Position numbers and translations under genes: made by a program
In this document: piece by piece, positions 12,266-16,184 of the stretch
Layout: every line of letters begins with the position of its first letter
Position numbering within the stretch: position 1 is the stretch's first letter
NCBI GenBank assembly: GCA_028875335.1
Contig: JAPPEF010000012.1
Coordinates: 1 to 16,563, forward strand
Source of the DNA: Gemmatimonadota bacterium
GTDB taxonomy: Bacteria; Latescibacterota; UBA2968; UBA8231
Direction: 5' to 3'
Length of the DNA: 16,563 nucleotides
Notes under the pieces: model-generated
What the model saw: only the letters and a program-made list of their open reading frames with translations
Databases searched by the model: none
Told to the model about the DNA's origin: nothing

Positions 12266-12940
12266 CTAGTTCGAGCGCAGGCGACGGGCCGACCACTCGC
12301 TGGCCACGAGGGCCAACAGCGAAAGCGCGACCGAGATCACGATTAGTCCGACGACGCGGCTTTCCCCGTCCGGTTGGTTGAGATACGTGTAAATGGCCGA
12401 AGGAATGGTGCGGGTCTGCCCGGCGATGTTGGCGGCAAAGGTGATGGTCGCGCCGAACTCTCCCAGCGAGCGGGCAAAGCTCAACAGCGAGCCGACCAGC
12501 AGGCCGGGAGCGGCGAGGCGCAAGGTCACGGTCAGAAAGACGCGCACCGGACCAGCCCCGAGGGTGCGGGCGACGCGCTCTAGGCGTGGGTCCACGCTCT
12601 CAATCCCGAGGCGCACGGAGCGCAGCATTAGGGGAAAGCCGACCACGGCCGAGGCCAGCACTGCGCCCTTCCAGTCGAAGGCTAACTGGAGGTCGAGCGC
12701 GGCGAGCACCGGGCCGAACAGACCCCGGCGGCCAAAAAGCAACAGGAGCAAATAGCCGGTGACCACCGGCGGCAGGACCAGCGGCAAGTGGCAGAGGCCG
12801 TCGAGCGCGATCTTGAGCGGGAACTCCCGCCGGGCCAGCAGCCAGCCCAACAACACGGCCGGCAACAGGCTCACCAGCACGCAGCAAAAGGCCACGCGCA
12901 GCGAGAGCAACAGGACCTGCACCTCCTCAGCGCTGAACAC
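12266..12940 (-). CDS. modB: Molybdate ABC transporter permease ModB
   Basis: This 224-residue inner-membrane protein has about five to six hydrophobic helices (for example VAFCCVLVSLLPAVLLGWLL and VGLIVISVALSLLALVA). The permease EAA loop is ARTLGAGPVRVFLTVTLRLA, followed by PGLLVGSLLSFARSLGEFGA, the usual ModB/CysT signature that contacts ModC. The start is GTG 12940, giving MFSAEEVQVLLLSL, as in other ModB N termini. It lies within the end of modA, overlapping it by 14 bases, so translation is probably coupled. A second possible GTG start follows an internal GAGGAG a few codons later but would cut into the first conserved segment. The gene ends two bases before modC. Complete and normal in length. 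Confidence 0.9.
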   Translation of the reverse strand: MFSAEEVQVLLLSLRVAFCCVLVSLLPAVLLGWLLARREFPLKIALDGLCHLPLVLPPVVTGYLLLLLFGRRGLFGPVLAALDLQLAFDWKGAVLASAVVGFPLMLRSVRLGIESVDPRLERVARTLGAGPVRVFLTVTLRLAAPGLLVGSLLSFARSLGEFGATITFAANIAGQTRTIPSAIYTYLNQPDGESRVVGLIVISVALSLLALVASEWSARRLRSN

Positions 12941-13802
12941 GTTGATCGCCCAAAAAGGTAAAGCCGTGTTTGCGGAAGATGTCGGCAGCCGTATTCGAGT
13001 TAAAAAATGCTAACAAATTGCGGGTCTGCGCGTTGGCGTGGCCCTTGACGATGGCCGCTGGATAGACGATGGGGCGGTGCAGTGAGTCCGGCACGGTCGC
13101 CAGGGTTATTACGCGGTCGCTTTGAGTCGCGTCGGTGGCGTACACTAGACCAGCGGCACATTCTCCGCGCTCGACGTAAACTAGGGCGGCGCGGACGTCG
13201 GGCGCGGGCGCGATGCGGTTTTTGAGCGCTGGCGACCAGCCCAACGCCGCTAGGGCTTGGCGGGCGTACTGGCCGGCCGGGACGTGATCGGGGTCGCCGA
13301 GGGCTAAGCGGCCAGTGAAGGCACTAGCAAAGTCGAAGTCCCTTGCCCAGCGGACGGTGAAAGGCTCTTCCCTAGGTGCAATGACTACGAGGGCGTTGCC
13401 GAGGAGATCGACGCGGGTGTCTTGCTCGATGTGCTGGCGCGTTTGGAGATAGTCCATCCACTCGGCATTGGCGGAAAAATAAATGTCGGCTGGCGCACCG
13501 GCGGCAATTTGCTTGGCCAAGGTCGAAGAGCTGGCAACGGACAGGTGCATCCCCTCGTAGTGAGTGGCTAGCTCTGAGAGTGCAGAGTTTAAGCTGGCGG
13601 CGGCGAACACGCTTTGGGCTGCTACTAGCGCAGGGTAGAGCAAGAGCAGTACGATGCTAACGGACGTTACGCACGAGCATCTAGGTATTAGATGCTTCGA
13701 CTCCGCTTCGCTCCGCTCAGCATGACAGCAGTGGTCGCGTTCCTTCCTTGTCATGCTGAGCGAAGCGAAGCATCCCATACCTAATGGCCTTTGCGTAAAC
13801 AT
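12927..13802 (-). CDS. modA: Molybdate-binding protein ModA, 5' end rewritten by a palindromic element
   Basis: The mature part is a normal periplasmic molybdate-binding protein: FAAASLNSALSELA (67-80) and SSSTLAKQIAAGAPADIYFS (91-110) form the first ligand-binding half. GDPDHVPAGQYARQALAALGW (169-189) and VYATDAT (220-226) form the second. It delivers oxyanion to ModB/ModC. The N terminus is abnormal. From the ATG at 13802 the first 48 or so residues, including CCHAERSEAESKHLI, are encoded by the element at 13661-13804, and only then comes the hydrophobic signal core SIVLLLLYPALVAA (49-62). Other in-frame ATGs in the element are at 13778 and 13754. The ancestral start was very probably ATG 13828, now cut off after eight codons. 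The ATG at 13802 overlaps that TGA, so reinitiation is possible. Whether the long n-region still allows export, and so whether the gene works, is unknown; a decaying gene is the alternative. Confidence 0.75.
   Translation of the reverse strand: MFTQRPLGMGCFASLSMTRKERDHCCHAERSEAESKHLIPRCSCVTSVSIVLLLLYPALVAAQSVFAAASLNSALSELATHYEGMHLSVASSSTLAKQIAAGAPADIYFSANAEWMDYLQTRQHIEQDTRVDLLGNALVVIAPREEPFTVRWARDFDFASAFTGRLALGDPDHVPAGQYARQALAALGWSPALKNRIAPAPDVRAALVYVERGECAAGLVYATDATQSDRVITLATVPDSLHRPIVYPAAIVKGHANAQTRNLLAFFNSNTAADIFRKHGFTFLGDQRVQR
13653..13660. repeat. 8-bp target-site duplication, left copy
   Basis: GATGCTAA here is identical to the copy at 13805-13812. The bases next to the two copies differ on both sides, so the match is exactly 8 bp. 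It lies inside the codons for the modA signal peptide (VSI). Confidence 0.78.
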
Positions 13803-13804
13803 CA
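13661..13804. mobile_element. 144-bp palindromic MITE-like element inserted in modA
   Basis: The two halves are imperfect inverted repeats. The inner arms are 13691-13727 and 13749-13774, identical except for an 11-base expansion of CTTCG/CTCCG units in the left arm. Pairing continues outward through TAGGTAT and TTACGCA near both ends. Exact 8-bp copies of GATGCTAA flank it. The core TCATGCTGAGCGAAGCGAAG is a type of intergenic palindrome I recognise from many bacterial genomes, often mistranslated as HAERSEA. It has no transposase gene, so it would have been moved by an enzyme encoded elsewhere. One frame on the minus strand is open through the full element. Confidence 0.78.
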
Positions 13805-13828
13805 GATGCTAAGTATGCGTAGGGTCAT
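13802..13828 (-). pseudogene. modA: Severed original start of modA (8-codon remnant, MTLRILSI)
   Basis: The ATG at 13828 reads MTLRILSI and stops at TGA, whose bases are the first of the inserted element. Joined on paper across the element at the GATGCTAA copies, the same frame continues directly into VLLLLYPALVAA and the rest of ModA, giving a textbook Sec signal peptide. The ATG lies inside the last codons of the nuclease-helicase gene (20-base overlap), so the two genes were translationally coupled. The TGA overlaps the ATG of the present ORF (TGATG). Confidence 0.72.
13805..13812. repeat. 8-bp target-site duplication, right copy
   Basis: This GATGCTAA matches 13653-13660. On the minus strand it contains the TAG stop codon of the nuclease-helicase gene, so the insertion left that gene's C terminus intact. 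Confidence 0.78.
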
Positions 13829-16184
13829 GGTGCCAGAAATCGGCCAGCGACTGGGCAATATGGGCTGGGTTGCGGACGGAATGCACTGGGTGCCAAGAGG
13901 CAGGAAAGAGCTGGCGGTAGCGGCTTTGTGCAAAGCGGCGATCGACGAGGAGGATAGCGCCGCGGTCGCTCGCGGTGCGGATGACGCGGCCGGCGGCCTG
14001 CAACACGCGGTTCATGCCCGGATAAACGTAAGCATACGCAAAGCCGGGAATCTCGCGCTCGTCGAAATAGTGGCGGATCAGGTCGCGCTCCAAGCACAGT
14101 TGCGGCAGCCCAACGCCGACGACTACTGCACCGACCAACCGCTCGCCGACTAAATCGATCGCCTCGCCGAAGACGCCGCCCATCACCGCGAAACCCACTG
14201 TGTACTGTTCGGGCTGCAATGGCTCTGCGTCGAATGCGGAGAGAAACGCCTCGCGCTGACGGTCGGACATGCCGCTTTCTTGGACGAGAAGGTCGATATC
14301 TGGGTGTGCCTCGGCAAAGCGCGTCGCCACTTCCTCCATGTATTTGTACGAAGGGAAAAAGGCGAGGTAGTTGCCCGCGCGCTGGCTGACGAGGGCGGCG
14401 ATGGACTCGGCGATGTCGTCGTAGCTCTCGCCGCGCTTTTTGTACGTGGTCTCAATGTGGTCGGCCAGTAGCAGGCGCAGGTGTTCGGGCGGGAAGGGCG
14501 AACCAAGGCTCAATAAGGTATCCCCCTCCTCGCCGCCGAGCAGGTCGCGGAAGTACGCCAGCGGCGAGAGCGTGGCCGAGAAGAATACGGCTGCGCAGCC
14601 GCGCGCTAGGGCTTGGCGGATATTGTGCGCTGGATCGAGACAGAAAATTCGGAAGCGAATATCCCGCCCCTGTTTTTCGGTGTATGTGGTATAGTGCTCG
14701 TCGAAAAGCTCGCCGATGCGCTCAAAGCCCAGCAACCGGAAGTAGCACTCGATCAATTCGTCCCAAAAGGGCAAGGCCGCGCCCTGCTCTAGGACCTTCT
14801 CGGCGGCGCGGAGGACGTTGTGGACCAGCGCCATTAAATCCGTCGATAGCTGCGGGCTAATCCAGCACTCGCCGTCGCCTTCTTGCTCGACCTTTTTGCT
14901 GAGCTTGGCAAAGTAGCGGTTGAGGGCGTCGAACTGTTTGCTCAAGTCGGGATGCGTCTTGCCGACTAAGCGCTTTAGTCCAGAGATCTCGGACTTGCAC
15001 AGATCGGCCGAGAACATCTCGCGCGCTCGATCGACGAGGTTGTGCGCCTCGTCAATGAGGAAGGCGTATTGCCCGCTGACGTCTTGGAAGAAGCGCTTGA
15101 GGAAGGCGCGCGGGTCAAAGACGTAGTTGTAATCGCAGATGATGACGTCGCACCACGGCGCGAGATCGAGCGAGAACTCAAAAGGGCAGACGCGGTGCTT
15201 TTGCGCGCATTCCTCGATGAGGGTGCGGGTGAAGGCGTCGTGGCTGAAGATGTCTTCAAGGGCGTCGTTGATGCGGTCGTAGTAGCCGCGGGCGAACTCG
15301 CATTGCTCGGGGTCGCAGGTGCTGCCGCCGTTGGGTTTGAAGCAGATCTTGTCGCGGGCCGTCAGCGTCAGGCTCTTGAGGCGTGCGCCTCCTCCGCGCA
15401 GGTCGTCGATGGCCTTTTCGGCGATTCTGCGTCCGCTGGTTTTGGCCGTCAGGTAGAAGATTTTTTCGGCATGGCCCAGGCCGAGGGCCTTGGCCGCCGG
15501 GAACAGAGTCGAGATGGTTTTGCCGATGCCGGTGGGTGCTTGGGCGAAAGCGCGACCACGACCGTCGATGGTGCGATAGGTGGCCGCGGCTAGATCGCGC
15601 TGGCCGGGCCGGTACTCGGCGAAGGGAAATGCGAGCGCCTCAAGCGAAAGGTCGCGTTCGGCGCACCACTGTTGGTAGATGCGCGCCCAATGCAGGTAGC
15701 GCTCGATGAGATCGGCGCAAAACGCCGCCAGTTCGTCGGACGCAAAGGTGCGGCGGTCCTCGCGGCGCTCATAGGTATCTAACTGAAGGTACGTTAGCTG
15801 GATGTCGATGGTGTCGAGGCCACTTTGTTCGGCGACTATGAAGGCGTAGAGCTTGGCCTGTGCCCAATGCGTTGGGTTTTCATAGATCTCATCGAGGTCG
15901 GCTTCGGTGGTCTTGATTTCCTCGATGAGCACGGCGTCGTCTTCGACGAGCAGGCCGTCGATGCGGGCGCTTATTTCGAGGGTAATCTCGTCGGTCTCGA
16001 CCAAGTAGGAGACAGGCACTTCCGCCTGATAGTCGGCGGGGCGGGCGCGCTGGATCTTCTGGTGGCCGCGCGTTCCTTCCACTAGGCGGTCGGGGCGGGA
16101 AAATCCACCGAAAACCAGATCACCAGAGCGCAGCACGAAGCCGACCAGTTCGCGGACCGAGGTTTTGAGCAGGCGCGGGGGCAT
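13809..16184 (-). CDS. RecB-type nuclease fused to an iron-sulfur XPD/DinG-family DNA helicase
   Basis: This 791-residue protein joins two domains. Residues 1-165 are a PD-(D/E)xK nuclease of the RecB type: H41 in EGTRGHQKIQ, D76 in ARIDGLL, E89 and K91 in LIEEIKTT, and the Q109-Y113 QxxxY motif in QAKLYAF. Residues 185-791 are a superfamily 2 helicase of the XPD/DinG type: Walker A APTGIGKT (216-223), four cysteines for an iron-sulfur cluster (C281, C290, C295, C333), DEAH (378-381), FFSATLSP near 533-540 and QAAGRVIR near 728-735. Such enzymes unwind DNA 5' to 3'; the fused nuclease suggests a role in repair of branched or damaged DNA, in the cytoplasm. It starts at ATG 16184, with no ribosome site but a -10-like box just upstream, so a leaderless message is possible. 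It ends next to modA and once overlapped it. Confidence 0.85.
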   Translation of the reverse strand: MPPRLLKTSVRELVGFVLRSGDLVFGGFSRPDRLVEGTRGHQKIQRARPADYQAEVPVSYLVETDEITLEISARIDGLLVEDDAVLIEEIKTTEADLDEIYENPTHWAQAKLYAFIVAEQSGLDTIDIQLTYLQLDTYERREDRRTFASDELAAFCADLIERYLHWARIYQQWCAERDLSLEALAFPFAEYRPGQRDLAAATYRTIDGRGRAFAQAPTGIGKTISTLFPAAKALGLGHAEKIFYLTAKTSGRRIAEKAIDDLRGGGARLKSLTLTARDKICFKPNGGSTCDPEQCEFARGYYDRINDALEDIFSHDAFTRTLIEECAQKHRVCPFEFSLDLAPWCDVIICDYNYVFDPRAFLKRFFQDVSGQYAFLIDEAHNLVDRAREMFSADLCKSEISGLKRLVGKTHPDLSKQFDALNRYFAKLSKKVEQEGDGECWISPQLSTDLMALVHNVLRAAEKVLEQGAALPFWDELIECYFRLLGFERIGELFDEHYTTYTEKQGRDIRFRIFCLDPAHNIRQALARGCAAVFFSATLSPLAYFRDLLGGEEGDTLLSLGSPFPPEHLRLLLADHIETTYKKRGESYDDIAESIAALVSQRAGNYLAFFPSYKYMEEVATRFAEAHPDIDLLVQESGMSDRQREAFLSAFDAEPLQPEQYTVGFAVMGGVFGEAIDLVGERLVGAVVVGVGLPQLCLERDLIRHYFDEREIPGFAYAYVYPGMNRVLQAAGRVIRTASDRGAILLVDRRFAQSRYRQLFPASWHPVHSVRNPAHIAQSLADFWHHDPTHT

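Follow-up and report, generated by a model that had tools for sequence, protein, structure and literature searches.

A MITE-type insertion with a 7-bp target duplication between a helicase gene and modA in a Gemmatimonadota bacterium, and its open fusion with the ModA reading frame

The window, by which we mean the whole 16,563-nt stretch of contig JAPPEF010000012.1 that was analysed, carries a helicase gene on its minus strand, followed by genes for a binding protein, a permease and an ABC/TOBE ATPase. The binding-protein gene had been named modA in a preliminary description made from the sequence alone, and this name agrees with the label of a close homologue (P0013), which its source calls a molybdate ABC transporter substrate-binding protein. 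Here W denotes the window locus, G numbers denote genomes of relatives, L numbers element loci, and P numbers protein clusters. The native modA start at 13828 (MTLRILSI) is present as previously claimed and sits within the final codons of the helicase gene. A palindromic element lies at the boundary of the two genes, and its parts are listed together with the neighbouring features in Table 1.

Table 1. Features at the helicase/modA boundary, in window coordinates.
Feature	Position	Strand	Details	Basis
Helicase gene, upstream	13809..16184	-	DEAD_2 / Helicase_C_2; stop codon 13809-13811 inside the right duplication, kept	
Native modA start	13826..13828	-	ATG, severed from modA by the insertion	
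Right target duplication	13806..13812		7 bp, ATGCTAA; contains the helicase stop codon	sequence
T1-type MITE	13661..13805		145 bp, ends C...G	ends compared with CTGAYGTTACGC-end elements; site empty in G001, G003, G004, G007, G010, G011
Right terminal inverted repeat	13792..13805	-	CTGATGTTTACGCA (read on the minus strand), one extra T relative to CTGATGTTACGCA	
Possible start inside the terminal repeat	13800..13802	-	helicase stop, two codons, ATG: TAG CAT CTG ATG	
Possible start in the element	13776..13778	-	AAAGG upstream; first residue of P0001, P0002, P0004, P0005, P0006	
Possible start in the element (MTRKERD)	13752..13754	-	P0007 starts at the matching place	
HAERSEA core, second arm	13749..13774		TGTCATGCTGAGCGAAGCGAAGCATC	
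HAERSEA core, first arm	13691..13727		GATGCTTCGACTCCGCT...CTCAGCATGACA	
Left terminal inverted repeat	13661..13673	+	CGGACGTTACGCA, one change relative to consensus CTGAYGTTACGCA	
Left target duplication	13654..13660		7 bp, ATGCTAA (GATGCTAA counting the preceding G)	sequence, G001 empty site, 7-bp rule
Fused ORF	12927..13802	-	291 aa: element N-terminus, ModA signal hydrophobic stretch, mature ModA; SBP_bac_11, E 1.5e-45	

Two copies of GATGCTAA, at 13653-13660 and 13805-13812, enclose an imperfect palindrome with inverted arms of 33 nt (76%) and 23 nt (96%). The folding z-score of 13653-13812 is -6.75, and 0 of 200 shuffles were equally good, so both the sequence and the folding agree with the earlier report of two identical copies around an imperfect inverted repeat. 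A search of Rfam gave three matches up to E 5, none of them near its gathering score (e.g. mir-880, 29.4 vs 80 bits). The exact limits of the element come from comparison with related elements that have clean ends, in which the right end reads ...CATCAG. The window element therefore spans 13661-13805 (145 bp) and is flanked by a 7-bp target duplication, ATGCTAA. An eighth base, G, also matches, but it belongs to the element, as its final base, at one copy and to the target at the other. Of the limits proposed before, the left one (13661) stands, while the right one moves from 13804 to 13805, and the duplication that had been read as 8 bp is 7 bp by the family comparison. Terminal inverted repeats, a target duplication and an empty site, as expected of a MITE, are all found at 13661-13805. 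The element has no transposase gene of its own, and its sole open frame is part of the modA fusion described below.

The empty site is found in related genomes. In the nearest genome compared (G001), a query of window positions 13400-14100 matches as two pieces, bases 1-261 and 405-701, which overlap by 9 bases in the G001 genome. This region of G001 (C18:37238-37786) reads ...AGTAAGATGCTAAGTG... with a single copy of GATGCTAA, and its ModA start is uninterrupted and begins MTLRTLSILLLLLWPALAAAQ, an intact signal peptide. The pre-insertion allele with a normal signal peptide, which had been predicted by removing the element on paper, thus occurs naturally. The locus was found in 10 of the 11 genomes of the genus that were searched, and the element is absent in 9 of these 10: G001, G003, G004, G007, G010 and G011 have both flanks and no element, and in G005, G006 and G009 (about 71-75% identical) the flanks leave no space for it. 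The tenth, G008, carries the insertion at the same base as the window, and G002 gave element matches only. The earlier suggestion to look in relatives for an allele lacking the element is therefore answered at base resolution, and the empty site in relatives with the locus indicates that the insertion is derived.

Elements with clean ends share the consensus CTGAYGTTACGC...GCGTAACRTCAG, and we call them T1. T1 loci were taken from matches to the window element and from pairs of ends among the matches listed. Some pairs in an initial collection of 53 had arisen by chance, and de-duplicated best pairs (27; 61 when pooled) were used in its place. The pooled set holds at least 61 de-duplicated elements of 60-300 bp with no more than 3 end mismatches in all; the window element is excluded, and a few same-site copies from two species are included. 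Exact direct repeats at the ends are 7 bp long in 22 of the 61 elements and 8 bp long in 3, compared with 13 exact 7-mers and 0 8-mers in 3660 control comparisons of the left flank of one element with the right flank of another. In the smaller set (n=27), there were no exact 5-, 6- or 9-bp repeats and one 8-bp repeat. Matching ends and flanking duplications in other copies had been named as a check, and for copies in relatives the outcome is divided: 25 of 61 have an exact duplication of 7 or 8 bp, and 36 of 61 have none. The latter may be old or rearranged, or their ends may be mispaired. Still, the empty allele, the further duplicated copies and an insertion sequence with matching ends uphold the claim that a MITE inserted here with duplication of its target.

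Insertion sequences with T1 ends occur in relatives. The autonomous units of this kind are L067, L127 and L147. L067 is a 1107-bp unit in G011 (C29:31971-33077) with T1 ends and a 352-aa transposase that passes the NCBIfam IS701_2 model NF049921 (342 bits, cut-off 250), and its flanks agree at 6 of 7 duplication positions. The same T1 ends lie around related transposases in G033, in a Pseudomonadales MAG and in Crenothrix sp. D3, where the unit (L147) has an exact 7-bp duplication, TACATAA, and a transposase 60% identical. No duplication was found in the flanks of the IS copies L127 and L128. A 2041-bp unit in G004 (L135) has GTGATGTTACGC ends with GTATTAA on both sides, and more distant Chloroflexi relatives have changed ends, e.g. 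CTCACCTTACGCAG. A transposase with similar terminal repeats, which the preliminary description had proposed to look for, is thus found in relatives in the form of L067-type insertion sequences with the same ends. A transposase match at E 1e-20 was found in 9 of 40 relatives. Several observations count against our best explanation: G008 has no transposase match at E 1e-20, G001 has only a transposase fragment with a stop, the ends of the window element match the insertion sequence for only about 13 bp (by eye), and exact duplications are missing in the 36 T1 elements mentioned above and in L127 and L128. We note that L147 (1458-2563) lies in a methanotroph-named record outside the phylum and has identical 12-base ends; its presence in Crenothrix sp. 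D3 would fit horizontal spread.

The family assignment of this partner insertion sequence follows from its model score. According to excerpts of a published account (PMC2266710), the target duplication of IS701 elements is almost always 4 bp exactly and most of these elements have no Y in the YREK motif, and the ISPepr1 subgroup of IS4 has 7-8 bp duplications, AT-rich targets, 5'-CT ends and a complete YREK. The partner resembles the IS701 family in its transposase score, which is above the IS701_2 cut-off, but differs from it in duplicating 7 bp instead of 4 bp and in having a complete YREK motif (YQKRWNVETFHKTLK at residue 272 of the L067 transposase). It resembles the ISPepr1 subgroup, as described in those excerpts, in its 7-8 bp duplication, complete YREK and 5'-CT ends, a likeness by description only, and that description fits the partner better than the IS701 description does. 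Because a 7-bp duplication and a full YREK are at odds with IS701, we call the partner IS701-type by model score only.

The interior of the element and its ends are separable. A second set of ends, T2 (CTAAGTACACGACAGT), bounds a 1165-bp insertion sequence in G007, which is flanked by a 9-bp duplication and encodes an IS4_2-type transposase (216 bits, cut-off 152). Among the T2 MITEs (n=8), the duplication is exact over 8 bp in 4 and agrees at 7 or more of 8 positions in 5. When T1 and T2 MITEs are aligned, the same asymmetric HAERSEA core lies between different ends. Core strings are absent in 16 of 27 T1 MITEs by a simple string test, which overlooked a true core in at least one case (L092), and some T1 MITEs have a PAKAGIQ/DACFRRHD-type interior (L083, L181). 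Since the same core lies between two unrelated end pairs and the same ends enclose other interiors, the HAERSEA core appears to be cargo and not the mobile unit; the earlier view that this core characterises the mobile element is not supported on the same grounds. HAERSEA-type palindromes are usually regarded as static repeats, and an exact-string search of the open-licence literature for HAERSEA, GAGCGAAGCGAAG and related core peptide strings gave, among the papers listed, none that was relevant by title. Within the phylum, the core pattern was found in at least 14 of 64 genomes and at least 2 of 24 genera among the matches listed. In most of the matches listed for the second genus, GATTCT...AGAATG stands in place of GATGCT...AGCATG; this change is paired and preserves the stem.

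Some further core-bearing loci were also observed. The mostly paired variant GATTCT...AGAATG occurs in G030 (at least 69 matches), G031, G028 and others, in genus g9 of another family of the same class. The locus L040 (384-538, in G033) lies between T1 ends. At L071 (281-1626; G004 C1:5685680-5687025), a T2 MITE with a HAERSEA core contains an IS110-family transposase unit, and the orthologous MITEs in G001 (L007) and G008 (L124) are without this unit.

The insertion had been thought to split modA. Stops close five of the element's six frames, and the remaining one joins mature ModA, so that the coding sequence would be given a new front end rather than broken. The same fusion is open in G008. 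A TTG at 13643 lies within the hydrophobic stretch. We searched a collection of 5.8 billion protein sequences, scored 8000 candidates and considered the best 120 of 324 matches. Among the matches listed, the element-encoded N-terminus is fused to ModA in at least seven clusters (P0001-P0007, 68 member sequences). Three of these (P0003, P0004 and P0006) have an extra 8 residues in frame within the fusion; a PFGFAQDK-type 8-residue insertion in the HAERSEA part is seen in these three and in P0052. Also among the matches listed, P0015, P0019 and P0020 have the end signature VTSVSI after other interiors. VTSVSI is the reading, in the fusion frame, of a T1 end followed by TTAGCAT, and judging from their protein sequences these alleles would have T1 ends. 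The T1 MITE L083 contains both VIPAKAGIQ (P0020) and LDACFRRHD (P0019). Protein searches favour open fusions, and broken-frame insertions, predicted as short proteins, could be missed; P0036, which starts at MFAAASL, may be one of these.

Comparison of the two inserted genomes suggests that the gene is retained. Mature ModA of W and G008 differs by 45 synonymous and 24 non-synonymous changes, which gives a dN/dS of 0.15, and part of the divergence behind this value may predate the insertion in one lineage because the modA-side tree rejects W and G008 as one clade (p-AU 0.0096). The other 27 genome pairs give a dN/dS of 0.15-0.38. Across 229 mature ModA codons, neither W nor G008 has a stop or frameshift. 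Mature ModA is under purifying selection, and modA was probably not lost by the insertion.

We favour, with a probability of about 0.8, a reading in which a T1 MITE was mobilised in trans and the resulting fused modA allele was kept by selection and spread over several modA backgrounds. This reading builds on what was observed: the site is empty in relatives, the ends and the duplication rule are defined, an insertion sequence shares these ends, several lineages have the fusion open, and mature ModA is under purifying selection. A non-autonomous T1 MITE would have been moved in trans by a 1.1-kb insertion sequence with the same ends and an IS701-type DDE transposase; for the window element, this was presumably a transposase of the L067 type. 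Transposition would duplicate 7 bp (rarely 8) of a target that is often T/A-rich. Its insertion point would have been the overlap of the helicase stop codon with the modA start, and the target duplication would have preserved the helicase stop. That one frame stayed open through the 145 bp would be an accident of the element's length and sequence. The element would supply start codons, so that 33, 41 or 49 residues, depending on the start, precede the ModA hydrophobic stretch in place of the native 7. The fusion is probably translated from one of these starts, and export of the fused ModA would still work. Selection on ModA would have retained the fused allele, which may have reached several modA backgrounds via recombination, repeated insertion or both.

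It is also conceivable that modA was simply inactivated, in which case the open frame would be a chance property of HAERSEA palindromes and the gene would be decaying. The insertion did sever the native start from the gene, long open stretches are frequent in HAERSEA repeats, and an eighth cluster, P0052, has the fusion followed by an apparent later frameshift. We consider inactivation unlikely, however, given the low dN/dS between the inserted genomes, the 229 mature codons that are intact in both, and the full fusion kept in at least seven clusters. Moreover, apparent frameshifts (by eye) are also present in the empty-site clusters P0037, P0049 and P0063, so a single case among eight inserted clusters does not clearly stand out. 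Another reading takes the HAERSEA palindrome as a REP-like repeat in its own right, mobile or structural, with its own mode of insertion, and the terminal repeats as incidental. The window duplication flanks the T1 ends and not the core, and coreless T1 elements have the same ends and duplications, which makes this reading very improbable, even though the core does occur between two unrelated kinds of ends and its mostly paired variant is abundant in another family (at least 69 matches in G030).

The inserted alleles may go back to a single insertion that spread, or the site may be a hotspot that received T1 elements repeatedly, in independent events of one orientation; we rate the second possibility at somewhat below even odds. 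Between W and G008, the element is 98.6% identical and the flanks are 92.3% identical (binomial P about 0.0005-0.001 at 7.4-8% divergence), and differences resume 1 and 3 bases beyond the GATGCTAA copies; both points favour independent insertions. In the adjoining 250-column bins, the two differ by 11.7% on the modA side and 5.3% on the helicase side. No recombination tract was seen around the element on the modA side, where W and G008 differ directly beside the repeat. G008 groups with G011 on the modA side (support 100/99). On the other hand, helicase-side DNA unites W and G008, weakly (64/92), and different stretches of the region yield different trees, so recombination is likely. Our ModA protein tree has 39 rows, of which 9 are HAERSEA-inserted (including W and G008), 3 are other T1, 26 are empty and 1 is unclassified (P0036); P0037, with its apparent frameshift, and rows beyond P0038 were left out. 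The HAERSEA rows need 6 changes on this tree, and their union in one clade is rejected (p-AU 0.011), as repeated insertion would predict. Supported inserted pairs are P0002 with P0005 (98/90) and P0003 with P0004 (98/83), and W with P0001 is less supported (90/84). Repeated insertion would also account for the VTSVSI signature after other interiors in P0015, P0019 and P0020, with the interior strings of P0020 and P0019 found in L083, and for the P0007 loop, RQESTSRC, which differs from that of the other HAERSEA rows. In contrast, the inserts of P0001-P0006, W and G008 have one loop, RKER[AD]H[CR]C, which argues for one insertion spread by recombination, and the P0007 loop and the other interiors beside the shared end signature point to repeated insertion or to swapping.

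A broader idea is that T1 MITEs, with constant ends around exchangeable palindromic interiors, work as cassettes: they would enter one gene boundary of this genus again and again and provide a portable module of start codon and leader peptide. We regard this as rather doubtful. If true, the modA locus would be a recombining pool of N-termini (native, HAERSEA, HAERSEA with FAQDKL, HSRESGNP-type and PAKAGIQ-type) under selection for ModA export, and a replicated natural remaking of the front end of a protein.

The trans-mobilised MITE that we prefer has counterparts among known systems. As described in part of a published source (PMC10969869), bacterial MITEs derived from insertion sequences are short, lack a transposase gene, share terminal inverted repeats with an insertion sequence, make target duplications and occur in many copies. 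T1 elements are alike in all of these traits and differ in that their interior is interchangeable, with one core in two kinds of ends and several interiors in one. The same part of that source describes Rickettsia palindromic elements as palindromes of about 150 bp that form in-frame parts of proteins. The window element is similar in being a palindrome of about 150 bp with a predicted open in-frame fusion to its host protein. Rickettsia palindromic elements are described there as in-frame insertions within ORFs, whereas the window element replaces a gene start and has visible terminal repeats, a duplication, an empty site and a partner insertion sequence. We liken the two by description only and do not file the window element among the Rickettsia elements. 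A MITE is a known kind of element; what is unusual here is the retained fusion that replaces the gene start and the mixing of ends and cores. We regard the MITE insertion with its natural empty site as real and well bounded, and the partner insertion sequence as plausible. For this HAERSEA-type palindrome the empty site is exact to the base, the ends and the duplication rule are defined and a plausible partner insertion sequence is available, so that its mobility becomes directly testable. The locus is also a replicated natural example of a MITE that landed on a gene start and seems to be tolerated because a new start and leader are supplied, and it bears on the evolution of signal peptides and N-termini.

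A target preference for stop codons was considered and is not established. In a first set, 6 of 15 duplicated T1 elements overlap the stop codon of a neighbouring ORF, against a background of 66/15907 at random and 11/336 for 7-mers ending in TTA/TAA. A recheck with longer flanks covered the five G011 cases and upheld four of them (L077, L079, L081 and L084, but not L082), and the sixth overlap is L106 of G004. In a second set (G007, G004), the count was 0 of 8. We record the insertion at the helicase stop in the window as an observation.

Orthologous MITE copies or fragments are found across species of the genus (L004/L120, L010/L098, L015/L094, L093/L097, L101/L107, L104/L105 and L121/L123), and some pairs have internal deletions in one species. 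Orthologous copies were compared 11 times (L007 used twice); the element is more alike than its flanks in 7 cases, equally alike in 1 and less alike in 3, and for this reason we do not claim slower evolution of the element. There are also T1-end units of 1.05-1.09 kb, namely L068 (250-1341), L069 (331-1404) and L070 (300-1346), in which no transposase-like ORF was found. One ORF in the L068 and L069 units has a weak similarity, below the cut-off of TIGR01784, to Rpn recombination-promoting nucleases. The L070 unit, with 83% identity to L069, is flanked by an exact 7-bp duplication (TATATAA).
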